The translations under genes and the position numbers were made by a program. A stretch of DNA of 36,928 nt from Elusimicrobiota bacterium (GTDB taxonomy: Bacteria > CG03 > SLGR01 > PWQF01). Positions 1 to 27,508 of this stretch are shown piece by piece. The notes under the pieces are model-generated. The model was given only the letters and a program-made list of their open reading frames with translations, was not told where the DNA came from and ran no database searches. Each line of letters opens with the position of its first letter. The first letter of the stretch is position 1. The stretch is from NCBI GenBank assembly GCA_003557485.1, contig PWOI01000180.1, forward strand, positions 1 to 36,928, written 5' to 3'.

Positions 1-552
1 CCGGAAGCGCTTCTTCTTGCCGGGGTAATAATGAGCGCCCTGGTTTCATCTGTAACATTTGTGATAATGGTTCTTAACAGGGACACAATATATAGAGTGC
101 TTTTTTTTCTTACCGGAAGCCTTCAATTTATAAACGCAAAAGAACTGGTTTTTGCTTCAGTAGTCACTGCGGCCGGCTTAATTATACTTCTTTTTAAATG
201 GAGGCAGATGGATATAATGACTCTCGGCGACGATGAGGCCATATCTCTGGGTATCGACGCTCCGAAGGAAAGAAAAATTCTTTTTGCTGTTTCCACGCTG
301 ATAGTTGCGGCCGGCGTATCTGTTGCCGGCATTATAGGTTTTGCGGGACTGGCTGTTCCTCATATAGTAAGGCTTGCCGCAGGCGCATCGCACAGAAGGC
401 TTATTCCTCTCTCAGCTCTTTTAGGAGCCGGTTTTCTTGTTTTCTGCGATGTGCTTGCAAGAGGGCTTTTCGCTCCGATGGAAATTCCGGCAGGCATAGT
501 AACTGCGGTTTTCGGAGCGCCTTTTTTCCTTTACCTGCTTGTAAAAAGATGA
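1..552 (+). CDS. FecCD/BtuC-family ABC transporter permease, 3' part
   Basis: This is the C-terminal 183 residues of an inner-membrane permease that imports an iron chelate, heme or cobalamin. The frame is open from base 1, so the start lies upstream of the window; the first in-frame ATG at 31 is internal. Visible family features are the cytoplasmic coupling stretch (LGDDEAISLGID), followed by the GIIGFAGLAVPHIVR motif typical of BtuC/FecD/FhuB, and hydrophobic helices on either side. Full-length family members are about 330 residues, so nearly half is missing. The stop codon overlaps the next gene's start as ATGA (549-552), which implies translational coupling to the ATPase. The substrate cannot be read from the permease alone; the BtuB-like receptor downstream makes cobalamin or a siderophore equally reasonable. 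Confidence 0.93.
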   Translation, partial: PEALLLAGVIMSALVSSVTFVIMVLNRDTIYRVLFFLTGSLQFINAKELVFASVVTAAGLIILLFKWRQMDIMTLGDDEAISLGIDAPKERKILFAVSTLIVAAGVSVAGIIGFAGLAVPHIVRLAAGASHRRLIPLSALLGAGFLVFCDVLARGLFAPMEIPAGIVTAVFGAPFFLYLLVKR

Positions 553-1310
553 ATATAAATGTTAGCGGCCTGACCGGTGGTTATAAAAAAGGGTTTAAAC
601 TAAAGGATATTAACTTCAGCGCACCCACCGGAAGTTTTACGGGTTTGATAGGACCCAATGGCAGTGGAAAGTCAACGCTCTTAAAAATGATTGCAGGTAT
701 TCTAAAACCCGAAAGTGGAGAGATTAAAGCCGGCGGGTTAAGTATCCCGGAAATCAGCGCAGGCCGCAGAAGCCGTATAATATCCTACCTCCCGCCGGCA
801 TCGCCCTCATTATTTCCTTTCACAGTTTTTGAAACGGTTCTGATGGGGCGCAATCCCTGGCAGGGAAAATTTTCTCCGGAAACGCGTCAGGACAGAGAAG
901 AAGCGCTTAAGGCAATGAAACTTGTTGGAATAGAATTTTTTAGGGATCGGCTTGTTTCCAGCCTTTCAACGGGAGAAAAACAGAAGGTCCTTCTTGCCAG
1001 GACTATATGCCAGCAGTCCAGTGTTATGCTTATGGATGAGCCGGTTAGCCATCTGGATATCCATCATATAAGACAGGTTTTTTATCTGCTCAGGAAAATA
1101 AACAATACGGGTGTAACTGTAATCGCCGCTCTTCACGATATTAATCTTGTTACTGCTTACTGCGGTCGTGTGGCGGTCCTCAGGGACGGCATAATGGTTG
1201 AATCCGGAAGTCATCCCAGTAAGGTAATAAATAAAAGTTTTCTGGAAAATATTTACGGTAAGGGAATAAGGGTAGAAGAAGTGGGAGGAAAAAAATATGT
1301 GTTCCCATAA
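549..1310 (+). CDS. ABC transporter ATP-binding protein, FecE/BtuD type
   Basis: This is the cytoplasmic ATPase that powers the permease encoded just upstream. All catalytic motifs are intact: Walker A GPNGSGKST (35-43), signature LSTGEKQ (139-145), Walker B ending MLMDEP (D163, E164), D-loop SHLD, and the switch histidine in ALHDINL. At 253 residues it has normal family length. The start overlaps the permease stop by four bases. The D-loop and the C-terminal segment (KVINKSFLENIYG) follow the iron-siderophore/cobalamin subfamily. It is useful as an internal contrast to the degenerate FtsE-like ATPase at 15751, which lacks several of these residues. The family assignment is secure and the substrate is unknown. 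Confidence 0.95.
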   Translation: MNINVSGLTGGYKKGFKLKDINFSAPTGSFTGLIGPNGSGKSTLLKMIAGILKPESGEIKAGGLSIPEISAGRRSRIISYLPPASPSLFPFTVFETVLMGRNPWQGKFSPETRQDREEALKAMKLVGIEFFRDRLVSSLSTGEKQKVLLARTICQQSSVMLMDEPVSHLDIHHIRQVFYLLRKINNTGVTVIAALHDINLVTAYCGRVAVLRDGIMVESGSHPSKVINKSFLENIYGKGIRVEEVGGKKYVFP

Positions 1311-3387: not shown

Positions 3388-3428
3388 TATTTTTAAAGTT
3401 AGCGGGGTAAAGCGCAGGAGGTGCAATT

Positions 3429-3776
3429 ATGGCCAAGAAAAGCGTGAAGAAGAAGGCGGCGCCGAAAAAGAAAACGGCTACAAAGAAAAAAGCAGTTAAA
3501 AAGAAAACAGCTGCAAAGCCGGCGGCAAAGAAAAAAGCAGTTAAGAAGAAAACAGCTGCAAAGCCGGCGGCAAAGAAAAAAGTAGCTAAAAAGAAAACAG
3601 CTGCAAAGCCGGCGGCAAAGAAAAAAGTAGCTAAAAAGAAAACAGCAAAAAAAGCAGCCCCGAAAAAAGCGGCAAGATGCTCAGCCTCTGTCAAGGACAA
3701 AAAATCAGGAAAGAAAAGACAGTGCAAGGGTAAAGCCGCAGGAAAATCCAAGTACTGCGTAACACACAAAAAGTAG
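3429..3776 (+). CDS. histone H1-like lysine-rich protein with Cys/His C-terminal motif
   Basis: This 115-residue, extremely basic protein is built of KKK-A/T/V-KK and AAKPAA runs, like the C-terminal tail of eukaryotic histone H1 and the HctB/AlgP-type bacterial proteins. Such tails bind DNA or RNA non-specifically; nucleoid compaction is the likely role, by analogy. The body contains three full copies and one partial copy of a 15-residue repeat. The last 32 residues differ: Cys-x14-Cys-x10-Cys-x2-His (ending YCVTHKK), a spacing seen in small putative zinc-binding tails of the RCKATTKKGKQCK...YCWQH kind. The combination suggests a basic tail attached to a small metal-binding head. It has the best ribosome site in this part of the window (AGGAGGTG, five bases before ATG), consistent with high expression. 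It is followed after ten bases by tRNA-Asp. Confidence 0.85.
   Translation: MAKKSVKKKAAPKKKTATKKKAVKKKTAAKPAAKKKAVKKKTAAKPAAKKKVAKKKTAAKPAAKKKVAKKKTAKKAAPKKAARCSASVKDKKSGKKRQCKGKAAGKSKYCVTHKK
3482..3646 (+). repeat. in-frame 45-bp tandem repeat, 3.7 copies
   Basis: Units at 3482-3526, 3527-3571 and 3572-3616 plus a 30-base partial unit at 3617-3646. Each begins AAAGAAAAAAG and ends GCAAAGCCGGCGGC. They encode a Lys/Ala/Pro-rich 15-residue unit. Units differ by only a few bases, mainly GCAGTT versus GTAGCT, so copy number is likely to vary between strains by slippage or recombination. Confidence 0.9.
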
Positions 3777-3786
3777 TTTAAAGAGC

Positions 3787-3864
3787 GGGGTGGTAGTTCA
3801 GTTTGGTCAGAACGCCGGCCTGTCAAGCCGGAGGTCGCGAGTTCAAGTCTCGTCCACCCCGCCA
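3787..3864 (+). tRNA. tRNA-Asp(GUC)
   Basis: The cloverleaf folds fully. Acceptor GGGGTGG (3787-3793) pairs with CCACCCC, discriminator is G, and CCA is encoded (3862-3864). The anticodon stem-loop CCGGC-CTGTCAA-GCCGG carries anticodon GTC. The T-arm is GCGAG-TTCAAGT-CTCGT. The D-arm starts with TAGTTCAG as in E. coli tRNA-Asp. It begins ten bases after the lysine-rich gene's stop and may be processed from the same transcript. Confidence 0.97.
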
Positions 3865-11700: not shown

Positions 11701-13563
11701 CAGCTTGAGGAAGAACTTGCAAGAACTGAAGGGGACCTTCGCCGGGCCCGTGCCGACCTTCAGGAAAAAGAAACACAGGTTAGAACCCAGCTGAGCGGCG
11801 AGTACGAAGGGCGTATATATAAACTTAAACTTGACCAGGCCCTGGCCTCTTCAGAACTGGAGTGGGTAAAAGAGAAACTTGATCTGGAGAAGAAAAGGTG
11901 GCAGCAGATAATAAACGATGCCGAAGAAGAAAAAACAAAAATCAAAACCCGCTTCAGCGAAAGGTCAGAAGAACTTGAAAACAGGTATACGGAGCGGCTT
12001 GAAGAAGTTGAAATCCGTCGCCATCAGATTGAAATAGAAAGAAATTCATTTGTCGAAAAAATAAGCGAGCTCAGGCAGCAGCAGAGCGAAACAGTGGCCC
12101 GCCTTAACGGAGAGATGGATTCTCTCCGTCAGGAATACCAGAAACGTATAGCGGAGATAAAGTCCGGCTACATGGAAGCCCAAGCTGAATCTCTCCATAT
12201 ACGCCAAAAACTTGAAGCCCGTGTCAATGAACTTGAGAACGAACTGCGGTGCAGGGAGGATGCGGACGGAAGGCTCAGGTCCGAAGCCGAAGCTGCCCGA
12301 AATGAAATAGAAACCCTTAAAGACCGTCTTCATGCAGCCGGTTTGGAGTCATCTGAAAAAATACGGCAGGCCCGCGCTGAATCTGCCGAAAAACAGGAGA
12401 AAATTGAAAATGAATTCAAATCAGTTCTGTCCGGACTTGAACGGCAGATAGAAGACAAACGCTTTAAGCTGCATCGCAGCGAAGCGGAAATATCCAGGCT
12501 TAAAGAAGAACTTTCTGAAGAAAAGAAAAGAAAAACAGCCCGGGAGCAGGACATTAGTGGCCAGGTACAGGTACTTCAGGATAAAGAAAACCGGCTTACA
12601 GAACGTATTTCTCTCATTGAAGAAGAAGTCAAGCGCCAGGAAAAGAGAGCTGAATTTGCAGAGCTTCAGCTGCAGTCTTCGCGGCAGGATTTAGAAACTG
12701 AAAGACAGCGGTGGGAAAGCGAAGTTGAAAGAGTAAAAGAAACCGGCCGGATGCGGGGGAAAATTGTAGAGGATAATTTAAGGCAACTCAAAGAAACCAT
12801 AGAATCGATAAGAAAAGAGAAAGATTCCCTTCTGTCCGTAATTACCGGTTCGGAAGAAAAGGTCAAACATGCCCGGGAAGAACTGGCAAGGGAAAGAGAG
12901 AAAGCGGACAGGGAGATTCAGCAGAAACATCTCCAGATCGAAGCCCTTAACGAAAAAATAAATGAACAGGAACGTTCCTGGCGCCGCCGTCTTGAGGACC
13001 ATGAAAGCCAGTTGAATATGGAGTTCCGGAAAACACTGGACGAAAGGCAGCAGCAGTGGCAGGAGATGTACCAGTCCCGGCAGCAGGAACTTCTTGATTC
13101 CAGGAAGAGGGTTGAGGAGTCCCTGGAGGATCTTCGCCGTGAAAAACTGTCAAACGAAAGGATGTGGGACCTTCGCCTCAAAGAGAAGGAGGATGAGCTT
13201 AAGGAAATTCAGCTTCAGAAAGCCCAGAACGAATCCAGGTATTCTTCCCTTATAGGTAAATATAAGGAAGAGCTTAGCCGTCTGCGCTCCAGGTACAACA
13301 GACTTTCGGAGGATCTTTCGGATAGAGAAGAACTTAACAGGGAACTCAGGGCCAGGATGGCCCAGCGCGACATTCAGTGGAAGACTGCTTACCGCAATAA
13401 AGTTATAGAAAACAGCAAACTTTTATTTGAGATTCAGCAGAACAGGAAGAATTTCATAAGCAGATTTTTAAACCGTATAAGCGGCGCTGAAGAAAAAAAG
13501 AAAGAAGAGTTTGATCGCCGTATTGTAAAAGAAGTAAAAGAAAACCGTCATATCATCCAATGA
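8755..13563 (+). CDS. giant coiled-coil protein 2 (1602 residues)
   Basis: A second cytoplasmic rod starts two bases after the stop of the first. I find no proline in all 1602 residues and only one cysteine (in ELRCRED), so nearly the whole chain should be one coiled coil of about 0.24 micrometre. It has no globular head, signal peptide or membrane helix. Twelve tryptophans (529, 579, 581, 701, 730, 1037, 1049, 1320, 1409, 1435, 1471, 1542) cluster in the C-terminal two thirds. Many lie in a motif W-x3-[LIYV]-x2-[KR]-x3-[IL] (for example WEWLIAQKQAEI, WDLRLKEKEDEL). The same motif occurs in protein 1, which supports common origin. The last 60 residues are basic and end in a short amphipathic stretch (NFISRFLNRISG). 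The stop overlaps the next start as ATGA. The two rods and the following membrane protein are therefore probably made together; co-assembly is inferred. Confidence 0.88.
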   Translation: MSLEQLKKQIEELKTRLRDRQAEFDRSLREKEEENVRIRREHEFKKSGLEDEIAALKERIANLRADRETRLAEANRDFSSKISEKEETINRLLREKREEAESLRLRAEKQQAEYEQKISFLESKKEEIETSLKKVSSDLNDLRNRLEKEKNARIYDNQINKANFEKEKSLLQQEYTEKENRVQEEAETLREQLSFLKQKLGEKEERLAGERRIRESEIRSLKEKSRSRETALENRLAELNEHKENLKSGLERIKKENAGILSSKEDENRILRSRLTLLEEENAEKIASANEEIENLRGALGRLRASTAREIDEKERSAARREEDLREEIKKLDVDNRRLEKNLSETLDLLQSEKKNFTEKYQRLTQDFQTESARKDIALEELRQEYTERIDQLTSELETTRSALEKALEEKENLLDDFRKRLAGRQDEIDLLNRRLRQLNSEKEDQLKRKEDEFLRMEDDLKTRLNNTAARLEEEKSTLRKKLSSLKEDYHSLQLDKDKTIQSLIEQLNAKESEMNNFRKAVVEEEAMWQERLSEARQDRAVTEQEKNEKEEELKKLRLRLEQETRDMAETLENKRQHWEWLIAQKQAEIIRLKEEHGREMLDLKKEYEDKQGELEFSRKGMENAVRELSDRMEKERAGHYESLREKDEQISQLRQQISQNEERITRQYEQEIRVLNQRRDKLLRQVDEARAKMQAREEAWEEKILIKSSEIEDARQKMKDREEELYNIWKEKQKTANDKILQLTREIERVKSSREGEIEQLTDSLRRQEEINRSSGVENIKREKEIEAQFREKLFILEKEKDNYSNELKVVRDQLNAERIRAFKQLREKSDEIESVRAEASRSSENIREAYSDKMATLQRLKERVKELEAEKEGIKSSLEAELKNRQEERNRLAVKYRADEERMQEQAREQKVQYEERIRELTHQLNLLKEREKQLSETLGRTEIDSQEEVEKLRREFLEKERQLIGEFSEKEKGLIARKNQLEEELARTEGDLRRARADLQEKETQVRTQLSGEYEGRIYKLKLDQALASSELEWVKEKLDLEKKRWQQIINDAEEEKTKIKTRFSERSEELENRYTERLEEVEIRRHQIEIERNSFVEKISELRQQQSETVARLNGEMDSLRQEYQKRIAEIKSGYMEAQAESLHIRQKLEARVNELENELRCREDADGRLRSEAEAARNEIETLKDRLHAAGLESSEKIRQARAESAEKQEKIENEFKSVLSGLERQIEDKRFKLHRSEAEISRLKEELSEEKKRKTAREQDISGQVQVLQDKENRLTERISLIEEEVKRQEKRAEFAELQLQSSRQDLETERQRWESEVERVKETGRMRGKIVEDNLRQLKETIESIRKEKDSLLSVITGSEEKVKHAREELAREREKADREIQQKHLQIEALNEKINEQERSWRRRLEDHESQLNMEFRKTLDERQQQWQEMYQSRQQELLDSRKRVEESLEDLRREKLSNERMWDLRLKEKEDELKEIQLQKAQNESRYSSLIGKYKEELSRLRSRYNRLSEDLSDREELNRELRARMAQRDIQWKTAYRNKVIENSKLLFEIQQNRKNFISRFLNRISGAEEKKKEEFDRRIVKEVKENRHIIQ

Positions 13564-15746
13564 TAAAAAGAATACTTGGAGTTTTTATAAGGCCTGTCCA
13601 GACTATAAGGAATATCTCCAGGGATGAGCCGCTTTTCTCCGGCCTGCTGATTTTTGCCGCCGGCATACTTGTCGCCAATGCCGGGCTTGTGAGGAATTTT
13701 ATGATGGACGGAAGGGCGGGAATATTTAACATGTTTGCGCTGCTTTTCTTCTGGGCCGGAGGGACTGTAATAGTTTCACTTTTTATAACAGGAGTCCAGA
13801 AGCTGATAAATCCTATGACTTCTTCGGTTCTTGATACAGAGCGTTTCCGAAAACTTATAATCACGGAGTTTCATATAGCTGCGATTTTAATCCTTAGTCC
13901 TGTTTTAGGAATGGTGTTTTCGGCGGTAGTGACCTGGGTTATACTTATTGCATGGCTTATTATACTTACAATGGCGGCAGTTTCATCCCTGTGGAACGTA
14001 ACCGAAATTAAGGCTGCGCTTTCAGTAGTTATTTCAGTATTGATTGTTTTTGTCGGAGCGCGTTTGCTCGACCCGTCTAACGGTTATGTTTACACTTCCG
14101 AATTTGAGGAGTTCAGCAGGGAACTTTCGTCAGGCATTACGCCGCTGCATTACGGTATACTGGGGTTTGACGAAAAAAGCAATATAGAAAGAAACAGGAA
14201 AGCAATACTGAAGGCTGCCGCAAGCTATATAGATGAAAGCCCGGGTTCACGGGCCGTTCCCTTTGCTTTTGTTACAAAGGGCGCGATTTTGGAGGCAGAA
14301 GGCCGGAAAGACGAGGCAGCTTCAATTTACAGGGAAATTGTAACAGAGCACGAATATGTGCCCGCACCTGTTTATAAAACTGCAATGCTTCGCCTTTCGA
14401 TGCTAATCTCTCCCGGGGAATACAACCTTCTTCCGGTTGATGTTACTCCGGCAAGGTTTATGAGAGTTCTAAGGCTGTGGAGGCTTCCCGTTTATCTTTC
14501 TTACTACCGCGGCAATATGGAGAGAGTAGGCACAATAAAGGAAATGATAAACACGGAGGATATTGATTTAATAGAAAGCCGGATGGATATGATTGAGAGA
14601 AACTTCCGGGATACCGATTTTATGGATGATATTTTTTACTGGCTGGCCCGCCGCTATGAACGGGAGGGAGACGCTGCGTCAGCTATTTATTATTATGAAA
14701 AAACCTATCGCAGCCCATACTCTACGTTTCCTGACAGGACTGCGGTGGAGACTTCTATGGGCTACATAGCATCTCTTGCGGGCCTGGATGAAATACTTCT
14801 CGAGCAATACCGCGCACCTGAAGCTATGCTTTCCGCTGCCCGTATTTACCGGGAAAAGGGAGACCCGGATACTGCCCGGAGAATTATAAGTACTCTTCTG
14901 AGACGGTATTCCCTGCACGGGGCCTGTAGCCGGGCGCTTGAATTAAAAGCCGAGATTTATGAGGAAAAAGGGAATTTCAAAAAGGCGGCTTCTATATATG
15001 AAAGAATAATGGAGAATTATCCCATGTCCGACATAGTTCCCCGGGTTAAAGAAAAAAGAAATATTATTCTCCGAAACATAGGTAATGCTGATATTTTGTC
15101 CGGTTATATAGCCGGGCGGGCTCTGTGGAGGGAAGGCCGCTATACGGATGCATTATCGGTTTACAGAGCCATAATTGAGAACTATCCGGAAACTCTCCTG
15201 GCCGCGCATCTTCAGTACGGTATAGCTTCCTATTACAGGTCCGCGGGAAGATATATGCAGGCGCTCCGCGAGTTCAGGGCCGGTCACGAAAAGTTTGCCG
15301 GAACCGATTACGGTTTTGAAAGCGCTCTTATGGCAGCGGAGATTCTCTCTGAAAACATGAGACATTACCGGCAGGCTTCTGGCTGGCTTCTTGAAATATC
15401 AGAACAGTATTCTCCGGAATTCCGGTCTTCTCTTAGCGGTCTTTCACCTGCTTACCTAGTGTTGAAGTCTGCAGAAATATCCGCCTCTCAGCTTGGACAC
15501 TACCGCAAGGCAATAAGGAGTTATGATTCGATACTGGAAAGATATTCCGATCCCGAAGCTGAAGCGGAGGCTCTCTATAAAAAAGCCGTAATATATGAGG
15601 AAGTATATAGACTTTACTCAGACGCCGCCGAGACATATAGCCGGATAGTATCTGAATATCCATCCACTTCTTTCCGGGACGCCGCTTACTCTAGGCTTGA
15701 AGATATTTATGACAAAGGAGTAAAGCACCTCAACAGGTTTTACTGA
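13560..15746 (+). CDS. Yip1-like membrane domain plus TPR repeat protein
   Basis: A 728-residue two-part protein. Residues 1-175 resemble bacterial Yip1-domain proteins: a PVQTIRNISRDEP opening followed by about five membrane helices, ending near VVISVLIVFVGARLL. Residues 190-728 are a soluble solenoid of tetratricopeptide-like helix pairs, clearest at EEKGNFKKAASIYERIMENYP, EGRYTDALSVYRAIIENYP and SDAAETYSRIVSEYP. These recall the outer-membrane lipoprotein BamD and YbgF/CpoB type repeats. No signal peptide is seen, so the repeat part could face either side. It overlaps giant protein 2 by four bases and precedes the FtsE-like gene by four. Inference: a membrane anchor or adaptor linking the coiled-coil rods to the FtsEX/EnvC-like complex. 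Family membership of the TPR part is clear; the Yip1 label is moderate. Confidence 0.82.
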   Translation: MIKRILGVFIRPVQTIRNISRDEPLFSGLLIFAAGILVANAGLVRNFMMDGRAGIFNMFALLFFWAGGTVIVSLFITGVQKLINPMTSSVLDTERFRKLIITEFHIAAILILSPVLGMVFSAVVTWVILIAWLIILTMAAVSSLWNVTEIKAALSVVISVLIVFVGARLLDPSNGYVYTSEFEEFSRELSSGITPLHYGILGFDEKSNIERNRKAILKAAASYIDESPGSRAVPFAFVTKGAILEAEGRKDEAASIYREIVTEHEYVPAPVYKTAMLRLSMLISPGEYNLLPVDVTPARFMRVLRLWRLPVYLSYYRGNMERVGTIKEMINTEDIDLIESRMDMIERNFRDTDFMDDIFYWLARRYEREGDAASAIYYYEKTYRSPYSTFPDRTAVETSMGYIASLAGLDEILLEQYRAPEAMLSAARIYREKGDPDTARRIISTLLRRYSLHGACSRALELKAEIYEEKGNFKKAASIYERIMENYPMSDIVPRVKEKRNIILRNIGNADILSGYIAGRALWREGRYTDALSVYRAIIENYPETLLAAHLQYGIASYYRSAGRYMQALREFRAGHEKFAGTDYGFESALMAAEILSENMRHYRQASGWLLEISEQYSPEFRSSLSGLSPAYLVLKSAEISASQLGHYRKAIRSYDSILERYSDPEAEAEALYKKAVIYEEVYRLYSDAAETYSRIVSEYPSTSFRDAAYSRLEDIYDKGVKHLNRFY

Positions 15747-15750
15747 TAAA

Positions 15751-16410
15751 GTGCCCCCCCTGCTTAAAGCAAAGAACATATTCCTCCGGACTTCCGGAAA
15801 TCCCCGCCGGGAAATACTTAGAGATATAAACCTGGCGGTTGAGGAGGGGGTTATGGTTCTTCTCCGGGGGCCTTCGGGCAGTGGTAAAACTAAGCTTCTG
15901 CAGGCGCTTTCCGGCAGGCTTATGCCGTCCTCCGGTAAAGTTCTGTTCTGCGGTGAAGATATCTATGGACTTAAGGGGCACTCACTCAGAGACTTTCGCG
16001 CCCGCTGCGGTTTTGCGTTTGAGAAGGATACATTTATAAATTCCCTTTCTGTTTCCGGTAACCTTTCCGAAATAATAAGAGCGCTGGGCATTCCTTCAAA
16101 AGTTGCTTTTGACAGGATCATGCATGTTCTGAAGCTTTGTTCTCTTATTAATTCAAGGGATATTCTTCCGGAAAATCTTTCTTCCGGAGAAAAGAAACTC
16201 TTCAAGCTGGCTCTGGCGCTTGTAAAAGAACCTGAAGTTTTTCTTTTAGATTTTAACCTCTGCATGGATTCACTTTCCCTTGAGATAGCCCGTATTCTGA
16301 AGTCAATATCTTCAAGGGGCGGCGCTATTATGGTAACTGCAGCGGATTACGGACGCGGCTCTCTTCCCTGCGATATATGTCTGGATATTCAAAATGGCGA
16401 AATCAGGTAA
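15751..16410 (+). CDS. ftsE: FtsE-like ABC ATPase lacking hydrolysis residues
   Basis: In E. coli FtsE binds FtsX, and the complex activates septal amidases through EnvC. The 219-residue length fits. Walker A GPSGSGKTK (40-48) and signature LSSGE (143-147) are present, so nucleotide binding is plausible. Other residues are changed: the Q-loop glutamine is Glu91 (FAFEKDTF), the catalytic glutamate after the Walker B aspartate D167 is Phe168 (LLDFNL), the D-loop region is altered, and the switch histidine is Ala197 (MVTAADYG). Such changes would be expected to abolish or nearly abolish ATP hydrolysis. The start is GTG at 15751; an upstream extension meets TAA at 15721 with no other usual start. 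It overlaps ftsX by 17 bases. The identity rests on neighbours as well as sequence; a generic ABC ATPase is the alternative. Confidence 0.8.
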   Translation: MPPLLKAKNIFLRTSGNPRREILRDINLAVEEGVMVLLRGPSGSGKTKLLQALSGRLMPSSGKVLFCGEDIYGLKGHSLRDFRARCGFAFEKDTFINSLSVSGNLSEIIRALGIPSKVAFDRIMHVLKLCSLINSRDILPENLSSGEKKLFKLALALVKEPEVFLLDFNLCMDSLSLEIARILKSISSRGGAIMVTAADYGRGSLPCDICLDIQNGEIR

Positions 16411-17191
16411 AATTTTTTCATATATATTCATTTTCCTGGGAACTCTATTGATTTGGGCTGCAGTATCGGCCCGTCGTATTCCCGGAGCAGCGGAAAGCCT
16501 GATAGCGCGGGAAGTTGATGTTATAGTATATGTGAACGAGACAGTTTCTGCCGGAGATATAAATATTTTTATTGATAAGTTTCAGGAAATACCTCCTTTT
16601 TTCTTTAAGGATTTCAAAACCTCCCTTCAGGCTCTTGAAGAGCTTAAAAAAGACAGAGTGATCGCTGCCGAACTTGACTCAATAGACAGAGAGTTTTCTC
16701 CTCCTCATACCTTTATTCTCGGCATTCGCCGGGTTGATCCAGCCGCTATTTCATCAGCGTTTCCCCGAATAAACAGGATGGAAAACGTCGAGTTTGTAGA
16801 TATTCCGTTAGAGGAAATATTCGCAGCATCCTCTTTTCTTAATCGTTTGGGTCTGTTCAGTAATATTTTAACTCTTATCTTCTGCGCCGCCGCGATGCTC
16901 TTAATATACTTTGGGTCTCTTTTCTATTATTATTTCTTTTCTGAGATAATAGATGCGGTTTCTGACCTGGGCGCTCCGTTTATAAAGATGGTATCTCCAG
17001 GTGTCGTCAGGCAGTTTTTTGCCGGTATTTTATGCGCCCTCGCGGCCTCTTTTCTCTTCTACTTCGGTTCTTTGCTTTCAGCGGTTCCGGTTTTTAGTAT
17101 TCAGGCAGTTCTTGTTTCTGCATTACTTGCGGCAGCCCTGTCACCTTCTTTTTTTATTTTGATATGCGTAATTTCATTAAAAAAGCGATAA
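16394..17191 (+). CDS. ftsX: FtsX-like cell-division ABC transporter subunit
   Basis: The 265-residue integral membrane protein has the FtsX layout: one N-terminal helix (about 7-26), an extracytoplasmic domain (about 34-150), then three helices (about 153-180, 205-228, 234-260). The extracytoplasmic part begins with the typical REVDVIVYVNE strand and contains a fiskeqAl-like helix (FKTSLQALEELKKD). E. coli FtsX is 352 residues; the difference is mainly a longer cytoplasmic N-terminus there. In FtsX the external domain contacts EnvC or another hydrolase partner, and an envC-like gene follows directly, overlapping by 28 bases. FtsX is not a transporter in the usual sense but transmits a conformational signal. 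How that could be driven with a degenerate FtsE is a puzzle. Confidence 0.85.
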   Translation: MAKSGKIFSYIFIFLGTLLIWAAVSARRIPGAAESLIAREVDVIVYVNETVSAGDINIFIDKFQEIPPFFFKDFKTSLQALEELKKDRVIAAELDSIDREFSPPHTFILGIRRVDPAAISSAFPRINRMENVEFVDIPLEEIFAASSFLNRLGLFSNILTLIFCAAAMLLIYFGSLFYYYFFSEIIDAVSDLGAPFIKMVSPGVVRQFFAGILCALAASFLFYFGSLLSAVPVFSIQAVLVSALLAAALSPSFFILICVISLKKR

Positions 17192-18321
17192 TCTTTCTTG
17201 TTTTTCTTTTTTTGCTCATCACGGAGATCTATTCCGGAGATGAAATAAATACCCTCAGGCATCAGATATCAGGCCAGGAAGAGGAACTTCACTTTATTGA
17301 AAATGAGATAAGGAACCTGAGGTCAAGACTCCGCCTTCTCACAGAAAGAGAAAAAGAACTGACAGGAAAACTTAATGACCTGGACAGGCAGATAAATGTC
17401 CGGCAGGCGCGGCTTTCCCGGGTAAGGAGTGACATAGAGACTGTCAGCAGGAGAATAACCGAAGCCGAGGATGCCATAAGAAAAAAAGAGAGGCAGAAAA
17501 CCGGGTACTGCGACGACATACAATGTCTGGCCCGCGCTTACTATTACAGGGCCTCAAGAAATTCCCGTCGCAGCTGGGTTTCCCTTCTTTTTGGAAAAGA
17601 GAGCAGAGATGATTTTGTTCTTGCATATATGGTCCGCGAGCCGGTAAGTGAATATGTCAGGACAGAAGCTGAAATAAGCCGTACAATTCAGGAAACGGAG
17701 CAGCTCCGCATTAAGAACATTCAGCTTACGGGACTTAAAAAGGAACTCGTGGAAATTCAGGACGGGTTTATAGAAAAAAGGAAAGCCCAGCTTGATATTG
17801 TGAGAGAAATAAGGCAGCAGCAGTTAGCGCGGCAGCAGGAAATAAGACGTATGGAAGAAGAAAAACAAAACCTGAAAGAACTGATAGAGTCTTTACGCCA
17901 CAAGGCCGAGAGCCTTGAAGCCCTGAAGCAGCTGGCCGAAGATTTTGCCCGGGGGAAGGGGATGCTTGCCTGGCCGGTCAGTGGGGAAGTTGTTTCAAGG
18001 TTCGGCAGGCAGAGACATCCTACGCTCGATACCCATATTTATAATCGAGGTATAGAGATAGAAATACCCGGTACCGCAGAGGTAAAATCAGTTGCCGGAG
18101 GTGAGGTTGTCTTTGCGCAGGAGTTCAGAGGTAAAGGCAATATGGTTGTAATAGATCATGGAAATAATTATTATACTATATACGGAGGGCTTGACATAAT
18201 ACAGGTGCAGGTCGGAAATCTGACAGAACCCCTTGACAATTTAGGTACGGTATCAGGCAGGCTCTATTTTGAGCTTGGCCGCGAATCCGAACCCGAAGAC
18301 CCCCTCCTGTGGCTTGAATAA
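17164..18321 (+). CDS. envC: EnvC-like murein hydrolase activator (degenerate LytM)
   Basis: A periplasmic 385-residue protein. The signal peptide is about 1-24, a long coiled coil covers 28-260, and a C-terminal LytM/M23 fold starts at WPVSGEVVSRFG (270). The zinc ligands of active M23 peptidases are lost: the HxGxD motif reads N294-R-G-I-E298, and the HxH motif position is Gly342 (YTIYGGL), although H332 in DHGNNY remains. The final LHFEL motif reads LYFEL. This pattern matches EnvC, which is inactive itself and switches on amidases when FtsEX opens it. Gene order ftsE-ftsX-envC supports the role. The start is inside ftsX (28-base overlap); the signal peptide immediately following it supports this choice. 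The amidase partner is not in the window. Confidence 0.88.
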   Translation: MRNFIKKAIIFLVFLFLLITEIYSGDEINTLRHQISGQEEELHFIENEIRNLRSRLRLLTEREKELTGKLNDLDRQINVRQARLSRVRSDIETVSRRITEAEDAIRKKERQKTGYCDDIQCLARAYYYRASRNSRRSWVSLLFGKESRDDFVLAYMVREPVSEYVRTEAEISRTIQETEQLRIKNIQLTGLKKELVEIQDGFIEKRKAQLDIVREIRQQQLARQQEIRRMEEEKQNLKELIESLRHKAESLEALKQLAEDFARGKGMLAWPVSGEVVSRFGRQRHPTLDTHIYNRGIEIEIPGTAEVKSVAGGEVVFAQEFRGKGNMVVIDHGNNYYTIYGGLDIIQVQVGNLTEPLDNLGTVSGRLYFELGRESEPEDPLLWLE

Positions 18322-18348: not shown

Positions 18349-19623
18349 ATGAAGAAAAATATAACAGTTTTCCTGACAGCTTTAATTATAAGCAGTGCGG
18401 TTATGGTTACCGTATCTGTCGTGCCTGTTTTTCTCCAGAGCCGCCCTGGCGCGGATAACTCGCCTCAACAGGATATTCAGGAGTATATGCGCCTTTTTTC
18501 CGACGCTTTTACCATTATACGGGACAACTATGTGGATGAAATGCCCGTTAAAGATATAATTTACGGCGCAATAGACGGCATGATAGGAGTCCTTGACGAT
18601 TATTCCCAGTTTATGGAGCCTAAAAGGGCGGACCGTATAAGGGAGGATTCCGAGGGAGAATTCGGGGGGCTCGGTATAAGAATAACAAAGGAAGGCGAAT
18701 ATATAAAAGTTATTACGCCGATGCCTGAAACTCCCGCCTACAGGAAAGGAATACTTCCCGGTGACCTTATTATTGAGATTGACGGGGAAGCCGCGCGCGG
18801 CATATCTATGGAAGATGCCGTAAACAAACTTCGGGGTCCGGAAGGTACGGAAGTAACGATCAGTATAAGACGAGAAGGGGAGGGAGAACTTATAAAATAT
18901 ACAATAGTGCGCGATACTATTGTCCCGCGTAAAGTATTCGGGAGGATGATAAATCCGGATATCGCGTATGTAAGGCTTACCGATTTTTCCGGCAACGCGC
19001 CTGAAATGTTCAAAGAAACCCTTCAGGATAAATTGAACGGGGGAGCCGCCTCATTTATACTTGATCTGAGAAATAATCCCGGCGGCCTTTTAAAAGCAGC
19101 TATAGAAATCTCTGAAATGTTTCTTTCCCGCGGAGATCTTGTGGTATATACCAAGGGAAGGGCTCCCAATCAGAGCCGGGAGTTTCATTCCCGTTCAAGG
19201 CCGGTCGCGCCGGAAATTCCGATGATAATACTTATAAACAGGGGCTCGGCCTCCGGATCGGAAATTGTAGCCGGTTCGCTGCAGGATCACGGCCGCGCCA
19301 TACTATTGGGGGAGAAAACCTTCGGAAAGGCGTCGGTCCAGTCAATAATAAACCTTGAGGACGGGTCTTCTCTGCGCCTTACGACTGCCGAATATTTTAC
19401 TCCCGGCGGAAATCCTATTCATGGAGAGGGTGTGTCTCCTGATATAGAAGTAAAACTTACAACCGAAGAAAAACGTCTTATGGCGGAAGAAAGATACGAA
19501 CTTTACACTCTGTCTGAAGAGGAGCGCGTTGAAAGAGAATCCGAAATAAGGGACCCTCAGCTTGATCGGGCTGTTGACATAATGAGAGCCCGCGCTATTT
19601 TTATGAGGGGCAATAAAGATTAA
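18349..19623 (+). CDS. ctpA: C-terminal processing peptidase, S41 family
   Basis: A secreted or membrane-anchored serine protease of 424 residues. The N-terminal hydrophobic segment spans about 5-30. A PDZ domain follows at about 100-185, with the carboxylate-binding FGGLGIRI loop and IIEIDGEAARGI. The S41 core is at about 190-385. The catalytic Ser302 lies in RGSASGSEIVAG and Lys327 in KTFGKASVQ, 25 residues apart, the same spacing as in E. coli Prc. Family members trim periplasmic proteins, including peptidoglycan hydrolases and their regulators, which fits the envC-like neighbour. It starts 27 bases after envC, preceded by GGAG. Its stop codon is embedded in the proposed start of the next gene. 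Confidence 0.95.
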   Translation: MKKNITVFLTALIISSAVMVTVSVVPVFLQSRPGADNSPQQDIQEYMRLFSDAFTIIRDNYVDEMPVKDIIYGAIDGMIGVLDDYSQFMEPKRADRIREDSEGEFGGLGIRITKEGEYIKVITPMPETPAYRKGILPGDLIIEIDGEAARGISMEDAVNKLRGPEGTEVTISIRREGEGELIKYTIVRDTIVPRKVFGRMINPDIAYVRLTDFSGNAPEMFKETLQDKLNGGAASFILDLRNNPGGLLKAAIEISEMFLSRGDLVVYTKGRAPNQSREFHSRSRPVAPEIPMIILINRGSASGSEIVAGSLQDHGRAILLGEKTFGKASVQSIINLEDGSSLRLTTAEYFTPGGNPIHGEGVSPDIEVKLTTEEKRLMAEERYELYTLSEEERVERESEIRDPQLDRAVDIMRARAIFMRGNKD

Positions 19624-20683
19624 ATCTCCGGGGATCCGCGCTTTTTTCAGCGCGGTAGTCATTCTAATAGCGTCAGTTTCGCTTCTTTACCTCTATTTAT
19701 CTCTCAGGGTACGTGACCTGTCGCCGGATGCCCGCGCCCTTAACAGTGAAATAAACTCGGTTCTTTTCGGCCACGGCTTAACCGATGCCGATATAACTCG
19801 CCAGTATCAGACACAGATGAAACGCGGCCGGTTTGAATGGATACAGTATACCAGGGAGATTTCTCTTCCTTCGGGAAAATACTCCGGTATTAAAGAGGAT
19901 ATACGCAGGGTATCCGGAACTCTGGAATTTGAAGAAACAGAGAGAACACCTCAAAAGGCCCGGATAAAAATATCTAAAAATAACGCCGTTCTTTCCGATA
20001 TAGTCTTTTCTCTTATTCCCGAAAAAGGCCTTCTTGCAATAGTGATAGATGACCTGGGTTACAGCCGCAACATAGAGCCGTTTACCTCTCTGGAAATACC
20101 CCTTACATATGCGGTTATTCCGGGATTGCAGTTTTCAGGCAGTATAACCGAAACGCTGCGTGCAGGAGGACATCATTATATAATCCATATGCCAATGGAG
20201 CCCCAAGACTCTTCCCTTATTGATAAGAATAATATGCTTCTGGTTTCAATGGATGAAGACAGCATACGCGCATCCCTTTCCGCTGCTCTCAGGAGCGTGC
20301 CGGGAGCCGGAGGTCTGAATAACCACATGGGTTCCAGGTTTACTTCTGACGCTGATGCCGTCAGGCGCCTTGTAACTATCTTAAAAGAGAAAAATCTTTT
20401 CCTGGTTGATTCCAGGACCTCAGGAGAGTCCGTCGCATATTCTACTGCCCGTGAAGCCGGTGTTCCGGCAGCTCAGAACAACTTTTTTATAGACAATCAG
20501 GCCGATTACGATTACATATACAAGCGTATGGAGGAGCTTACCCGTAAAGCCGCCGCAAGAGAATCAACTATTGCAATAGGACACATCCAGAACATAAATA
20601 CAGCCCGGGTACTGAAGGAGTTTATTCCGGAGATGAAAAAAGCCGGTATAATATTTGTTACAGTGGAAGAGTTGCTGAGATGA
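19619..20683 (+). CDS. divergent polysaccharide deacetylase, probable ATT start
   Basis: A YibQ-type (DUF610) putative carbohydrate deacetylase, commonly found next to envC and ctpA. From the first in-frame ATG (19817) the product would be 288 residues without any export signal. The frame stays open upstream to a stop at 19604, and that extension encodes a clear membrane anchor (AFFSAVVILIASVSLLYLYL). It has no ATG, GTG or TTG codon. ATT at 19619 sits eight bases after GAGGGG (19605-19610) and shares one base with the ctpA stop (ATTAA), so I choose it; the product has 354 residues. Catalytic-domain motifs, numbered from ATT, are IDDLGY (D144, D145), HMPMEP (H190) and NHMGS (H236). Periplasmic action on glycan, perhaps peptidoglycan, is inferred. 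The end overlaps tsaD by four bases. Confidence 0.82.
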   Translation: MKSPGIRAFFSAVVILIASVSLLYLYLSLRVRDLSPDARALNSEINSVLFGHGLTDADITRQYQTQMKRGRFEWIQYTREISLPSGKYSGIKEDIRRVSGTLEFEETERTPQKARIKISKNNAVLSDIVFSLIPEKGLLAIVIDDLGYSRNIEPFTSLEIPLTYAVIPGLQFSGSITETLRAGGHHYIIHMPMEPQDSSLIDKNNMLLVSMDEDSIRASLSAALRSVPGAGGLNNHMGSRFTSDADAVRRLVTILKEKNLFLVDSRTSGESVAYSTAREAGVPAAQNNFFIDNQADYDYIYKRMEELTRKAAARESTIAIGHIQNINTARVLKEFIPEMKKAGIIFVTVEELLR

Positions 20684-22480: not shown

Positions 22481-22831
22481 GGGGGCGATATGGGTTCGAC
22501 AGCGGCATGGCTTTAAATCGCGAGTCGCAGGCAGCGTTTGTCGGTAACGCTTAAAAACCGTCAAAAAGTAAACGCAGACAATAATCTAGCGTTGGCAGCC
22601 TAACACAGGCAGCCTGCCCCGGTGGGTTTACCCGCTGGCCTGCCGAAGGGTATCATAAAAACGGGAGTAGCTGGGATGAACCCCCCTGGCATTTCGGCGA
22701 AAACTTAAGGGGAAACCTTCCGCATACCGTCTGTTCCGGGCCGGTGCGGAAGAAATTAAACCGGAACTAAGCCTGTAGAAGCTTCGGTTGGCGGCTGCTG
22801 GACGCGGGTTCGATTCCCGCCGCCTCCACCA
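22481..22831 (+). ncRNA. ssrA: transfer-messenger RNA (tmRNA)
   Basis: tmRNA rescues stalled ribosomes and tags the unfinished protein for proteolysis. The 5' end GGGGGCG plus ATATGGGTTCGACAGC is the standard tRNA-like half. The 3' half has the T-arm GCGGG-TTCGATT-CCCGC and the acceptor CGCCTCC, then A and an encoded CCA. The tag frame reads to TAA at 22601-22603. Starting at GCA (22574) it gives ADNNLALAA; starting at GTA (22568) it gives VNADNNLALAA. The ALAA ending is the classic protease signal. GCA is the more usual resume codon, so I prefer the shorter form. It is one-piece, not the permuted two-piece type. Confidence 0.97.
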
Positions 22832-22967: not shown

Positions 22968-24074
22968 ATGACTCCATTATTACCGGGTAAAAAAGATGTT
23001 CTTGGGGTAGATCTGGGCAGTTCCAGGGTCAAGGTTTTAGAGCTTAAGACCTCCGGCAGCCGGATTACCGTTGTAAACTATGCCGAAGACGACATAAGCG
23101 CCAAGTCTATAACCGAAAAGTCTCCGGAAGAGCGTCGTGAGATTTATATTGAAGCGCTGAAAAATTGCCTTAAAAAAAGAAAATTCGGCACAAAAAGCGC
23201 TGCCGTTTCCGTTTCGGGCAGTTCAGTGATAGTAAGGTTTGTAAAGTTCCCTAAAATGAACCCGGAAGACCTGGAAAAAACCCTTCAGTTTGAGGCCGAA
23301 CCCCATATTCCTTTTGATATACAGGATGTTGACATGGATACCCAGATTATAGGGGATGTTGAGGAAGAGGACCAGTTAAAAATGGAAACGGTCCTTGTCG
23401 CCAGCAAGAAAGAAACCATCAGAGAAAAAATAGAAATACTTGAAAAAGCAGGGTTGAAACCGGTAGTAATAGATGTTGACGCTTTTGCCCTTGAAAACGC
23501 CTATGAAACAATAAACGGAGAGCAGGGTGCGGATTCCGGTATGAGCATGATTGTAAACATAGGGGCTTCCGTGACCAACATAAGCATTGTTGAGGGGGGA
23601 ATTTCAAAAGTTGTGAGGGACCTTTATACGGCCGGAAACAGTTTTACACGCGCTTTGCAGAATGCTCTTCAGCTGGATCCCGTAAAAGCTGAAGAAATAA
23701 AAAAACAGCATGGTCTCTCGGGCGCTCCGCAGGAGGGATCAGGAGACTCCGGAGATATAGCGGCCCAGGCTTACAGCGCAATGTACCCGGTAATGAGGGA
23801 GCTAAATTCGGAAATGCAGCGCAGCATAGATTATTTTACCGGGCAGCAGTCCGGGCAGGGTGTAAATATAAAAAATATCATAATTTCTGGAGGAGGAGCC
23901 TCAATGAAATTCCTTCCTGACCTTGTACATGCGGACTTGGGTATCCCGGTAGAAGTCTTCCGTCCGTTTGAAAAAGCTTCGCTTGCCGATAAATCAATGC
24001 AGGTTGACCTGTCCAGTCCGGCCCTTGCTGTTGCCGCAGGCCTGGCTCTCCGGAAAATAGGCGACCATAAGTAG
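22968..24074 (+). CDS. pilM: type IV pilus assembly ATPase PilM
   Basis: PilM is a cytoplasmic actin-like protein that forms a ring beneath the pilus machine and holds the N-terminus of PilN. The 368-residue protein begins with the phosphate-1 motif VLGVDLGSSRVKVLEL and later has the second actin-type motif MIVNIGASVTNISIV and the SGGGASMKFLPDL adenosine-site stretch. The FPKMNPEDLEKTLQFEAEPHIPF segment is diagnostic for PilM. It is the first gene of the classic pilM-N-O-P-Q order. A one-base gap separates it from pilN, whose product should provide its INLIP partner peptide. Confidence 0.96.
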   Translation: MTPLLPGKKDVLGVDLGSSRVKVLELKTSGSRITVVNYAEDDISAKSITEKSPEERREIYIEALKNCLKKRKFGTKSAAVSVSGSSVIVRFVKFPKMNPEDLEKTLQFEAEPHIPFDIQDVDMDTQIIGDVEEEDQLKMETVLVASKKETIREKIEILEKAGLKPVVIDVDAFALENAYETINGEQGADSGMSMIVNIGASVTNISIVEGGISKVVRDLYTAGNSFTRALQNALQLDPVKAEEIKKQHGLSGAPQEGSGDSGDIAAQAYSAMYPVMRELNSEMQRSIDYFTGQQSGQGVNIKNIIISGGGASMKFLPDLVHADLGIPVEVFRPFEKASLADKSMQVDLSSPALAVAAGLALRKIGDHK

Positions 24075-24075
24075 A

Positions 24076-24645
24076 ATGATCAAGATAAACCTCATTCCCA
24101 AAGAGATAGAAGCAAAAGCTGCCAAAAAGAAAAAGGGAGTCCTTATTGCCGGAGCCGTTATTGTTTTTCTTGCTGGAGTATTCGGCATTTATATGTTTCG
24201 GGTAACCGAGCTGAGAGGTTTAAGAAACAGAATAGCGCAGGTTGACAGGGAACTCAGGTCCCTGCGTCCTGTTGTGGACAAGGTGAGACAGATAGAAAAC
24301 CAGAAAAACGGTTTAAACAGAAAGATTACCGTTATAAAAGATCTGATGCAGGTGCGCCTTACTGCTCCTGTATTTATGGAAGACCTGGCGGCTGCTATTC
24401 CCGAAGGCGTGTGGCTTAGTGCGATATCTACTGTCCCCGGTGAAGGAAGCCTTCAGTTAACCCTTGGTGTTATGGCAAGGGATAATTATGCGGTAGCGGA
24501 TCTGTTGAACGCATTGGAACTCTCGGAAAATTTTTCAGAGGTGCAGTTTACCGGTCTTTCTTCTACTACTCACGGTGAAGAGGAAGTCCGGACTTTCAGT
24601 TTAAGATGCAGGTATCATTTCAAGGAGGCTTCTGATGGGGCTTGA
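24076..24645 (+). CDS. pilN: type IV pilus inner-membrane protein PilN
   Basis: PilN is a bitopic inner-membrane protein that links PilM to PilO. The 189-residue chain opens with MIKINLIPKE, matching the conserved INLLP peptide that binds PilM. A basic stretch and one membrane helix follow (about 24-42, GVLIAGAVIVFLAGVFGIY), then a periplasmic coiled coil (50-95) and a ferredoxin-like domain. The end overlaps pilO by 11 bases. Length and layout are normal for the family. Confidence 0.94.
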   Translation: MIKINLIPKEIEAKAAKKKKGVLIAGAVIVFLAGVFGIYMFRVTELRGLRNRIAQVDRELRSLRPVVDKVRQIENQKNGLNRKITVIKDLMQVRLTAPVFMEDLAAAIPEGVWLSAISTVPGEGSLQLTLGVMARDNYAVADLLNALELSENFSEVQFTGLSSTTHGEEEVRTFSLRCRYHFKEASDGA

Positions 24646-25183
24646 GCTCGGAACAGGCGAAGTTACTAAACAGCAGAAAATTATTCTAGGTATTCTTGCT
24701 GTAGTAGGATTTATATATTTCTATTCAAGCGTTTTTGCTCCGATAAGCGGGAATATACAGGAAGCCGAAGGAGAGCTGCAGAGAAAAAGAAACGAACTTA
24801 CAGAGATGCGCGTAAGGGCTGACCAGCTGGATGCCCTTGAAAAGGAGTTTGAAGTTCTGGCCGGGCACCTTAAAAGGACTGAAGAACACCTTCCGCGTTC
24901 CGAAGAACTTCCTGAATTCATTAAAACAATAACCAGCCTTGCCGGCCGCTTTGATATGGACGTAAGGTCTCTTTCCGTTCAGAGCGTCACTACCGGGGAA
25001 TATTACAGAAAGCATCCCTATAGAATGGAGTTGAGCAACGACTACCATGCTCTGGGACATTTTTTTGCCGAACTGGGCCAATTAGACCGTATTTTCGGGA
25101 TAAGGAACCTTAATATTTCAGGCTCAGAAGAGGGTAGGGTGATAGCTAACTTTGATATAGTGGCTTATACTTTCATAGACTGA
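24635..25183 (+). CDS. pilO: type IV pilus inner-membrane protein PilO
   Basis: The 182-residue PilO forms a heterodimer with PilN and connects to the PilP lipoprotein. A short cytoplasmic N-terminus is followed by one helix (about 15-33, IILGILAVVGFIYFYSSVF), a coiled coil (40-80) and the periplasmic domain with the LPRSEELPEFIKTI entry and the typical YHALGHFFAELGQLDRIF stretch. The stop TGA shares its final A with the ATG of pilP. The family call is clear from sequence and position. Confidence 0.94.
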   Translation: MGLELGTGEVTKQQKIILGILAVVGFIYFYSSVFAPISGNIQEAEGELQRKRNELTEMRVRADQLDALEKEFEVLAGHLKRTEEHLPRSEELPEFIKTITSLAGRFDMDVRSLSVQSVTTGEYYRKHPYRMELSNDYHALGHFFAELGQLDRIFGIRNLNISGSEEGRVIANFDIVAYTFID

Positions 25184-25638
25184 TGGATATAAAAAAGTTT
25201 TTAATTATTATTTTTATTCTGACCGCTGCAGGATGCGGACGCCGGGACGATCCTCGAGATATGCCGCGGCGCCGTCCGGTTGCAATCGAAATAGAGGAGC
25301 CGGAAGAAATAAAAATACCGGAATATACTTACGGTGGGTCTGTTTACCGCAACCCTTTTCTCCCCGCAGGGATACGGTCACGTGCCGATTATACTGAAGA
25401 ACTGTTCGCGCAGGATATTAACCTGGCAGGCTTAAGGGTAACCGGAATTATATCGGACAGGAAAAGCAAATACGCAATACTGTCTGGTGCCGGAGAATAT
25501 TATATAGTGAGGGAAGGCCGCCTGTTGGATGAAGAAGACAGGCCGGTTTCGGGTGTGGCCGCGATAGTCGGCGATGATAAAGTCACCCTTATAACTGAAG
25601 ACGAAAGGACTATCAGTCTGCCGGCCCCCCAATGGTAA
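25183..25638 (+). CDS. pilP: PilP-like pilus lipoprotein
   Basis: A 151-residue lipoprotein with a signal sequence and lipobox TAAGC (Cys18) that bridges the PilNO complex to the PilQ secretin in the periplasm. After a disordered charged linker (19-50) comes the short motif YRNPFLP, then a small beta domain (LAGLRVTGIISDRKSKYAILS, then YYIVREGRLL) that matches the PilP/GspC homology fold. The sequence itself is weakly conserved in this family, so position between pilO and pilQ carries much of the weight. Next gene starts 46 bases downstream with its own ribosome site. Confidence 0.87.
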   Translation: MDIKKFLIIIFILTAAGCGRRDDPRDMPRRRPVAIEIEEPEEIKIPEYTYGGSVYRNPFLPAGIRSRADYTEELFAQDINLAGLRVTGIISDRKSKYAILSGAGEYYIVREGRLLDEEDRPVSGVAAIVGDDKVTLITEDERTISLPAPQW

Positions 25639-25684
25639 AAATAGAATTAGCAGTAACTTAAAAAATAAAAGAGAGGCCAATAAA

Positions 25685-27508
25685 ATGAAAAAAATAATAA
25701 TAGCTGTAATACTGTTTGCTTTGCCCCTGGCACCGTCGATTTCAGGCAGACAGGCAGACAGCGGGGAAAAACTGCTCAATGTGGAAGTTTCGGAAAAATC
25801 GCCAGGAGCAGCCAGAATTATTATGCATACAAGCGGCAGGGTTCGGTTTCATGTTTTCAGGGTTTCGGACCCGCCCCGTCTTGTGGTTGAAATGGTTGAT
25901 ACTCTGAATCAATGGGAAGAAAGAGAATCGGACATTTCCGGGTCCATAGTGAAAAGGGTCCGGGCCGGGCAGTATAAGTCAGAGCCGACAAAAATAACCA
26001 GGGTTGTCCTTGATATGAACATTGATGATTATATACACGATGAAGTATCAACAGATAAAGAAATAACTATACTTGCAAGCCTTACAGAGGATAAGATGGC
26101 AAAACTTGAAAAAGAAAGACCAGATAAAAAAATCCGGCTCAGCCTGGAACCAAATATACCTACACCGGAACACCAGCAGCAGATCGAAGCAATAAGAAGG
26201 CAACGGCTTGAGCGTGAAGCTGAAAGAAAGGCGCGTCTGGAAGAAATCAGCCGTCTTAAGAACCAGCTTGAAGAAATGAGAAAGAAAGACGTAATTCCCG
26301 GAAGTATAGTAACGGAACTCAGCCGTGAAAATGTCTCTTTTAACTTCAGGGACGCCGATATAAGGGAAGTCCTGAGAGCCTTTGAGCAGAAGCTCGGCCG
26401 GAACATAATTCCTACCGACCAAGTAACCGGAAGGGTTACCCTTAGGGTAAGAGATGTGCCTTTCGATGAAGCGTTTGCCCTTCTTCTTGAAAGGAGAGGG
26501 CTTGTAGTCATACAGACCTCGGCAAACATACTCGAAGTAATGCCCCGGGAAAATATGCCTGTTAAAAGGCAGACTTTCAATGTCCGCAACAGGGATGCTT
26601 CAGATATGAACACCACGCTGAACAATCTTCTAACGGCAAATGAAACTGAAAATGCAAGAATAGCTGTAGATGAAGCAACAAACTCACTTATAGTATCAGC
26701 TCCGCCGGATATACTTGAAAGGATAGAACTGATAGTAAACAGTCTTGATATAAGAGAACCACAGATAAAGATAAAGGCGCGTCTTATAGAAGTCGTTGCT
26801 GACGATGGAATTGATACCGGAGTTAGCTGGGCGGCCCACAGCGAATTTGAATCCAGCGAGGAAATAGAGAGGGGCCGCGCCGTTTATCCCGCTGCGGACT
26901 ATGAATTCGACCCTGTAACAGGAGAAATAGACAGTCGCCGTACAATAGAACGCTATACTTCAGGACTCACACTTGATATTTCTGCCGTTATGGACGATGT
27001 AAGCTTATACGGCCTGCTTAATTTTCTTGCTACAAAGACCAGGGCAAAAACTCTTTCCGAGCCTACAATACTTACCCAGAACAAGAGGGCGGCTAATATA
27101 CATGTAGGGACCGATCTTCCCATAAGGACAGTCCAGAGGACAGCTGAAGGACTTGTCGAGAATGTTGAGTTCGTGCAGGAAGGGGTGCGCCTTGATGTTA
27201 CTCCCTCGGTTGCGCCGGGAAGTGATCAAATAACCCTTGATGTTAATGTCAGCGTTTCGGAGCTTATAGGTTTCAGGGCGGATTTGCCGATGATAGGCGA
27301 TCGGGCAGCCAACACCCTGATAACAATTCAGGACGGCAAAACAGTTGTTATAGGAGGCCTCATAAGAGAATCCGAACGCTCTGAAGAAACAGGGGTTCCT
27401 CTACTCAAGGACATCCCTCTGCTGGGGTATCTTTTTAAACGCCGCACCGCCGGTAAAGACAGAAGTGAACTTCTGATATTCCTTACTCCCGAGCTGGTCA
27501 TAGACTGA
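25685..27508 (+). CDS. pilQ: type IV pilus secretin PilQ
   Basis: PilQ forms the outer-membrane gated channel through which the pilus exits. The 607-residue protein has a signal peptide (1-21) and an N-terminal AMIN domain (about 27-115, with SGRVRFHVFRVSDPPRLVVEM) that binds peptidoglycan. A charged helical linker at about 155-205 contains a predicted coiled coil. The secretin N0/STN domain (FNFRDADIREVLRAF) and N1 domain (RNRDASDMNTTLNNLL) follow. The secretin core then runs to the C-terminus with LSEPTILTQNKRAANIHVG and VPLLKDIPLLGYLFKRR. Only one AMIN domain is visible; many PilQ proteins carry two or three. The ribosome site GAGAGG is at 25671-25676. Confidence 0.96.
   Translation: MKKIIIAVILFALPLAPSISGRQADSGEKLLNVEVSEKSPGAARIIMHTSGRVRFHVFRVSDPPRLVVEMVDTLNQWEERESDISGSIVKRVRAGQYKSEPTKITRVVLDMNIDDYIHDEVSTDKEITILASLTEDKMAKLEKERPDKKIRLSLEPNIPTPEHQQQIEAIRRQRLEREAERKARLEEISRLKNQLEEMRKKDVIPGSIVTELSRENVSFNFRDADIREVLRAFEQKLGRNIIPTDQVTGRVTLRVRDVPFDEAFALLLERRGLVVIQTSANILEVMPRENMPVKRQTFNVRNRDASDMNTTLNNLLTANETENARIAVDEATNSLIVSAPPDILERIELIVNSLDIREPQIKIKARLIEVVADDGIDTGVSWAAHSEFESSEEIERGRAVYPAADYEFDPVTGEIDSRRTIERYTSGLTLDISAVMDDVSLYGLLNFLATKTRAKTLSEPTILTQNKRAANIHVGTDLPIRTVQRTAEGLVENVEFVQEGVRLDVTPSVAPGSDQITLDVNVSVSELIGFRADLPMIGDRAANTLITIQDGKTVVIGGLIRESERSEETGVPLLKDIPLLGYLFKRRTAGKDRSELLIFLTPELVID

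Follow-up and report, generated by a model that had tools for sequence, protein, structure and literature searches.

The FtsEX systems studied to date differ in what they require of ATP: depending on the species, amidase activation needs its hydrolysis, its binding or neither. In E. coli, a hydrolysis-dead, ATP-bound FtsEX (E163Q) activates EnvC-AmiB in vitro; activation is brought about by ATP binding in P. aeruginosa, is nucleotide-independent in V. cholerae and uses hydrolysis in M. tuberculosis (PMC11139282). The E. coli FtsE mutant D162N still supports cell separation if NlpD is present, and the hydrolysis-dead FtsEX with this substitution blocks septal synthesis through FtsA; E. coli FtsE also docks on the conserved C-terminal peptide of FtsZ (PMC7343993). 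A preliminary description of the locus reported here started from the premise that, in characterised FtsE, EnvC is activated through FtsX only when ATP is hydrolysed. This premise holds only in part, as the E. coli, P. aeruginosa and V. cholerae data show (PMC11139282, PMC7343993).

We analysed a window of 36,928 nucleotides (contig C31 of a 2.07-Mb Elusimicrobiota draft genome, 86.6% complete), which exhibits an intact ORF corresponding to an FtsE devoid of the residues expected for ATP hydrolysis (Table 1). The E. coli FtsE sequence served as the yardstick for the motif positions. The alignment confirmed what had been described for the Walker A motif and the LSSGE signature, which remain, and for the Q-loop Gln and the Walker B glutamate, which are replaced by Glu91 and Phe168. 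The loss of the switch His also stands; its position, previously given as Ala197, is one residue further on, and as residue 197 is an alanine too, the conclusion is unaffected. The D-loop, absent from the earlier list, is likewise degraded. As described before, the frame is coupled on both sides, with a 4-nt gap upstream and a 17-nt overlap with ftsX.

Table 1. Features of the locus in the window
Feature	Coordinates	Strand	Basis or remark
Canonical ABC ATPase, importer type (control)	549..1310	+	motifs canonical
Giant coiled-coil protein CC1, 1568 aa	4046..8752	+	no TM/signal
Giant coiled-coil protein CC2, 1602 aa	8755..13563	+	no TM/signal; conserved C-terminal block
Yip1-like membrane protein, 728 aa, with 5 TM helices and TPRs at the C-terminus	13560..15746	+	order-specific
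FtsE, 219 aa, predicted ATPase-dead	15751..16410	+	GTG start, intact ORF; ABC-type NBD
Walker A GPSGSGKT, residues 40-47, kept	15868..15891	+	alignment with E. coli FtsE
Q-loop Gln replaced by Glu91	16021..16023	+	alignment with E. coli FtsE
Signature LSSGE, residues 143-147	16177..16191	+	alignment
End of Walker B (DEP to DFN): D167 retained, Phe168 in place of the catalytic Glu, then N169	16249..16257	+	alignment
Switch His position, Ala198	16342..16344	+	alignment
Divergent FtsX, 265 aa, with 4 TM helices and a large periplasmic loop following TM1	16394..17191	+	profile, hydropathy
Amidase activator of EnvC type, with signal/TM, a coiled coil and a degenerate LytM domain	17164..18321	+	top PDB match 8tzk
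CtpA/Prc S41 peptidase, conserved neighbour	18349..19623	+	domain match, synteny
Divergent polysaccharide deacetylase, YibQ-like, conserved neighbour	19817..20683	+	true start may be upstream

The closest NCBIfam model for this ORF is FtsE (TIGR02673, equivalog), the top match, with a score of 101 bits, below the curated cut-off of 264.85 bits. An AF2 model (pLDDT 87) exhibits the NBD fold, and its best fold match in the PDB is the FtsE of the FtsEX structure 8ymc, with MacB and LolD folds ranking close behind. A quick tree, computed after removal of the motif columns, groups the genes of the window's order inside FtsE (SH-aLRT 93; 88 for the order plus its sister family) and separate from the LolD of the same genomes, its long branches leaving the exact placement unsure.

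The gene directly adjoins ftsX. The FtsX of the window exhibits the expected topology and scores weakly (27 bits against an NCBIfam cut-off of 255); all PDB matches of its profile are FtsX chains, and two orthologues of the order match PF18075. In the downstream EnvC, the zinc His of the LytM domain is replaced by Asn294 and the HxH motif is lost, so that a coiled coil is combined with a LytM domain lacking zinc ligands; its best PDB match is the EnvC of the V. cholerae complex. The ftsX and envC genes overlap by 28 nt. As the FtsE, FtsX and EnvC genes overlap or nearly touch, they are likely to be expressed from a single transcript. TsaD is also among the surrounding genes, and the window's genome holds further LytM proteins. 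FtsZ matches were found in 15 of the 16 genomes of the phylum and Amidase_3 matches in 12 of the 16, the window's included. The FtsZ C-terminal tail motif is kept in the two order members that were read (IPAYLRRKEKD in G005 and IPTFMRNREEK in G007); we take these tails to resemble the conserved C-terminal peptide of FtsZ. FtsA exceeds its cut-off in the window's genome and in most of the phylum, with no strong match in G001 (82% complete) and G006 (66% complete). A loss of FtsA removing the need for hydrolysis is thus rejected.

The locus shares with the FtsEX-EnvC systems (type VII ABC) of E. coli, P. aeruginosa and V. cholerae the FtsE-FtsX-EnvC set, the NBD fold, the four-TM FtsX, a degenerate LytM EnvC, a partner amidase, FtsA and FtsZ, as well as CtpA and YibQ-like neighbours of EnvC (envC and yibQ being linked in E. 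coli). Unlike those systems, the window FtsE lacks the three hydrolysis residues and the D-loop, and both FtsE and FtsX score far under the NCBIfam equivalog cut-offs. The E. coli laboratory mutants E163Q and D162N likewise place a non-hydrolysing NBD under FtsX, and recruit or activate EnvC. In contrast to these, the loss in the window is natural, fixed and affects several motifs together, and D162N blocks septal synthesis in E. coli. FtsEX-RipC of M. tuberculosis is similar in its mechanotransmission from FtsEX to a cell-wall hydrolase, and differs by its high basal ATPase, its dependence on hydrolysis and the absence of EnvC.

Six orthologues from four families were found in the order (the window, G001, G002, G004, G005 and G007); each exhibits the triple loss (Q-loop Gln, catalytic Glu and switch His) and sits immediately ahead of FtsX-EnvC. 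The orthologues thus share the three changes, a point that the preliminary description had proposed to check. Since six independent genomes exhibit the same losses, assembly error and chance are ruled out. G001 belongs to the same genus as the window (74% identity in FtsE) and was the sole true orthologue named by a single-protein search for related loci. No FtsE was found in G003, where the contig stops at EnvC, or in G006 (66% complete); every genome of the order is a draft split into many contigs. The end of Walker B reads D-[FL]-N in 6/6 members. The LSSGE signature is limited to the window's genus, the remaining members exhibiting LSRTE, LSSAE, LSSVE or LSFIE. The Walker A Lys, the Walker B Asp and the signature Ser are invariant among the six, and the 22 positions of 219 without variation include five of the eight P-loop columns (hypergeometric p = 3e-4, from as few as six sequences), a pattern which fits a retained capacity to bind phosphate. 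In f5, a sister family within this phylum, the FtsE gene has the same neighbours, arranged as FtsX-EnvC-CtpA-YibQ-TsaD. Its Q-loop segment is deleted, and the switch His is gone in 7/7; the catalytic Glu is an Asp in the g7 genomes and is retained in G009, G011 and G015. The loss is partial across the phylum and complete in the window's order.

The pseudo-FtsE is under strong purifying selection. Between the window and G001, its dN/dS is 0.155, compared with 0.183 for FtsX, 0.142 for EnvC, 0.060 for CtpA and 0.160 for the canonical ABC ATPase at the start of the window, the values (NG86) being approximate with a dS near 1. The latter protein, previously proposed as a normal control, indeed exhibits canonical motifs. 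Together with the intact frame and the order-wide conservation, this ratio bears out the earlier statement that the gene is not simply decaying. A search for a second, intact FtsE, also suggested before, found none in the assemblies: the NCBIfam cut-off (264.85) is exceeded in 0/16 genomes of the phylum, against 7/14 control genomes, a negative that carries the caveat of the 13% missing from the window's genome. No genome yielded more than one FtsX locus. The better-scoring NBDs inspected in the window's genome are LolD, MacB and one adjoining a MacB-type permease; the inspected better scorers against the FtsE model, which are of LolD, MacB and ABC3 type and come with permeases of their own, were rejected as candidates.

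Outside the phylum, FtsX was sought with PF18075 in 193 genomes and the adjoining NBD was read. Of 90 FtsE genes beside FtsX (82 family codes), 78 keep all three residues. The switch His is absent in the other 12, some of them highly divergent and perhaps not all true FtsE genes; three of the 12 also lack the Gln and three the Glu. The triple loss was found in none of the 90. As every departure from the canonical set includes the His, the comparison suggests, without proving it, that this residue is lost first; in the window's lineage the three losses were probably stepwise, with the switch His gone before the catalytic Glu. The survey also points to repeated loss of the FtsE switch His in several lineages, of which the literature searched contained no description. 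G082 and G130, the closest outgroup sequences according to the profile, exhibit a Lys or an Asn in place of the switch His. Like the window FtsE, the partly degenerate FtsEs of G082, G130, G110, G157, G054, G093 and G024 lie beside FtsX, lack the His and often have a degenerate signature; unlike the window's order, they keep the Q-loop Gln or the catalytic Glu. Divergent FtsEs beside FtsX in lineages outside the phylum (L214, L220, L199 and L215) exhibit an altered P-loop or signature, an altered His or a Glu-to-Gln change. At 18 of the 110 FtsX loci surveyed (L124, L162, L164 and others) no ABC NBD was detected nearby; some of these are contig ends, and others may reflect split ftsE and ftsX.

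We consider it probable (about 0.62) that the true FtsE of this lineage has turned into an ATPase-dead NBD, a scaffold that holds FtsX for EnvC recruitment. FtsEX would probably work here as a fixed clamp and not as an ATP-driven switch. The pseudo-FtsE would dimerise beneath FtsX, perhaps holding nucleotide without turnover, and keep FtsX in the EnvC-recruiting state; the degenerate LytM domain of EnvC would then activate the resident Amidase_3, with timing provided by recruitment to the FtsZ ring and by other inputs instead of the ATPase cycle. A structural NBD, with or without bound nucleotide, is favoured because published activation does not always need hydrolysis. The static nucleotide clamp previously envisaged is compatible with the conserved P-loop, and the degenerate signature in 4/6 orthologues weakens the idea of a nucleotide sandwich. 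Against this reading, hydrolysis-dead FtsEX blocks septal synthesis via FtsA in E. coli; FtsA being present here, the FtsA link would have had to change in the window's lineage. An order in which the hydrolysis residues are gone and the gene is kept amounts to a natural experiment on the need of FtsEX for ATP.

The upstream genes raise the question of a role for a scaffold. CC1 and CC2, which exhibit 7- and 11-residue periodicity, are probably cytoplasmic rods, judging from their sequences; Pfam yields no usable family for them, the ZapB and DUF641 matches being below cut-off. The order CC1-CC2-Yip1/TPR-FtsE-FtsX-EnvC is kept in G001, G002 and G005, and in part in G004 and G007, whose contigs end. 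From hydropathy only, the five predicted TM helices and the positive N-terminus of the Yip1/TPR protein predict that its TPRs are periplasmic. In G005 this gene is reduced to its membrane domain, the TPR part being absent, and no Yip1 domain was found in f5. Two f5 loci (L110 and L112) carry a different long coiled-coil protein (more than 1000 aa), encoded on the opposite strand at a distance of a few genes upstream of FtsE. It is improbable that the FtsE loss originated with the rods or the TPR protein, because the TPRs are predicted on the periplasmic side and are missing in G005, and because the f5 FtsE is degenerate without a Yip1/TPR gene. The same observations speak against the proposal that the pseudo-FtsE anchors a coiled-coil scaffold, the rods, with the Yip1 protein, binding the NBD and gating FtsX-EnvC mechanically or spatially instead of ATP. 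The conserved gene order, the absence of TM or signal sequences from the periodic coils and the highly conserved C-terminal block of CC2 speak for such an arrangement, which we nevertheless regard as rather unlikely, the link between the coils and the NBD being one of gene adjacency. It is doubtful that FtsEX is naturally ATP-independent here with the pseudo-NBD coupling the CC1/CC2 and Yip1 scaffold to EnvC-amidase activation; if true, a cytoskeletal partner, and not ATP, would gate septal wall cutting.

Residual catalysis is another matter. A weak ATPase, hydrolysing ATP slowly through non-canonical residues, would agree with the invariant Walker A Lys, Walker B Asp and signature Ser and with the Glu or Asp kept by sister-family members; it is made improbable by the Phe or Leu at the catalytic position, the loss of the switch His and the Q-loop Gln in 6/6, the lost D-loop and the signature degenerate in 4/6. 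Heterodimeric ABC proteins with one degenerate site exist, a precedent for an intact NBD (LolD-, MacB- or ABC3-type) coming from elsewhere to pair with FtsX or with the pseudo-FtsE and form a heterodimer with one active site. The genome does encode intact type VII NBDs, but those inspected adjoin, or are fused to, their own permeases, and we hold this pairing very improbable. Finally, the divergence of FtsX could be read as that of a lineage losing FtsEX, with ftsE decaying; the low dN/dS, the intact frame and the synteny across four families leave this reading scarcely credible, and we reject it.

Several other features of the window deserve mention. A Lys/Ala-rich repeat protein resembling histone H1 (about 3427-3780, + strand) lies immediately ahead of a tRNA-Asp (3787-3864). 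A tmRNA with the tag ADNNLALAA is found at 22481-22831, followed at 22968-27508 by genes that read, on inspection by eye alone, as the type IV pilus set PilM, PilN, PilO, PilP and PilQ, in this sequence. The segment 28183-35743 encodes a PEP mutase/cytidylyltransferase fusion, a TPP enzyme, a Sulfotransfer_2 protein and two adjacent LicD-family proteins, possibly a cluster for phosphonate or choline-type surface decoration.
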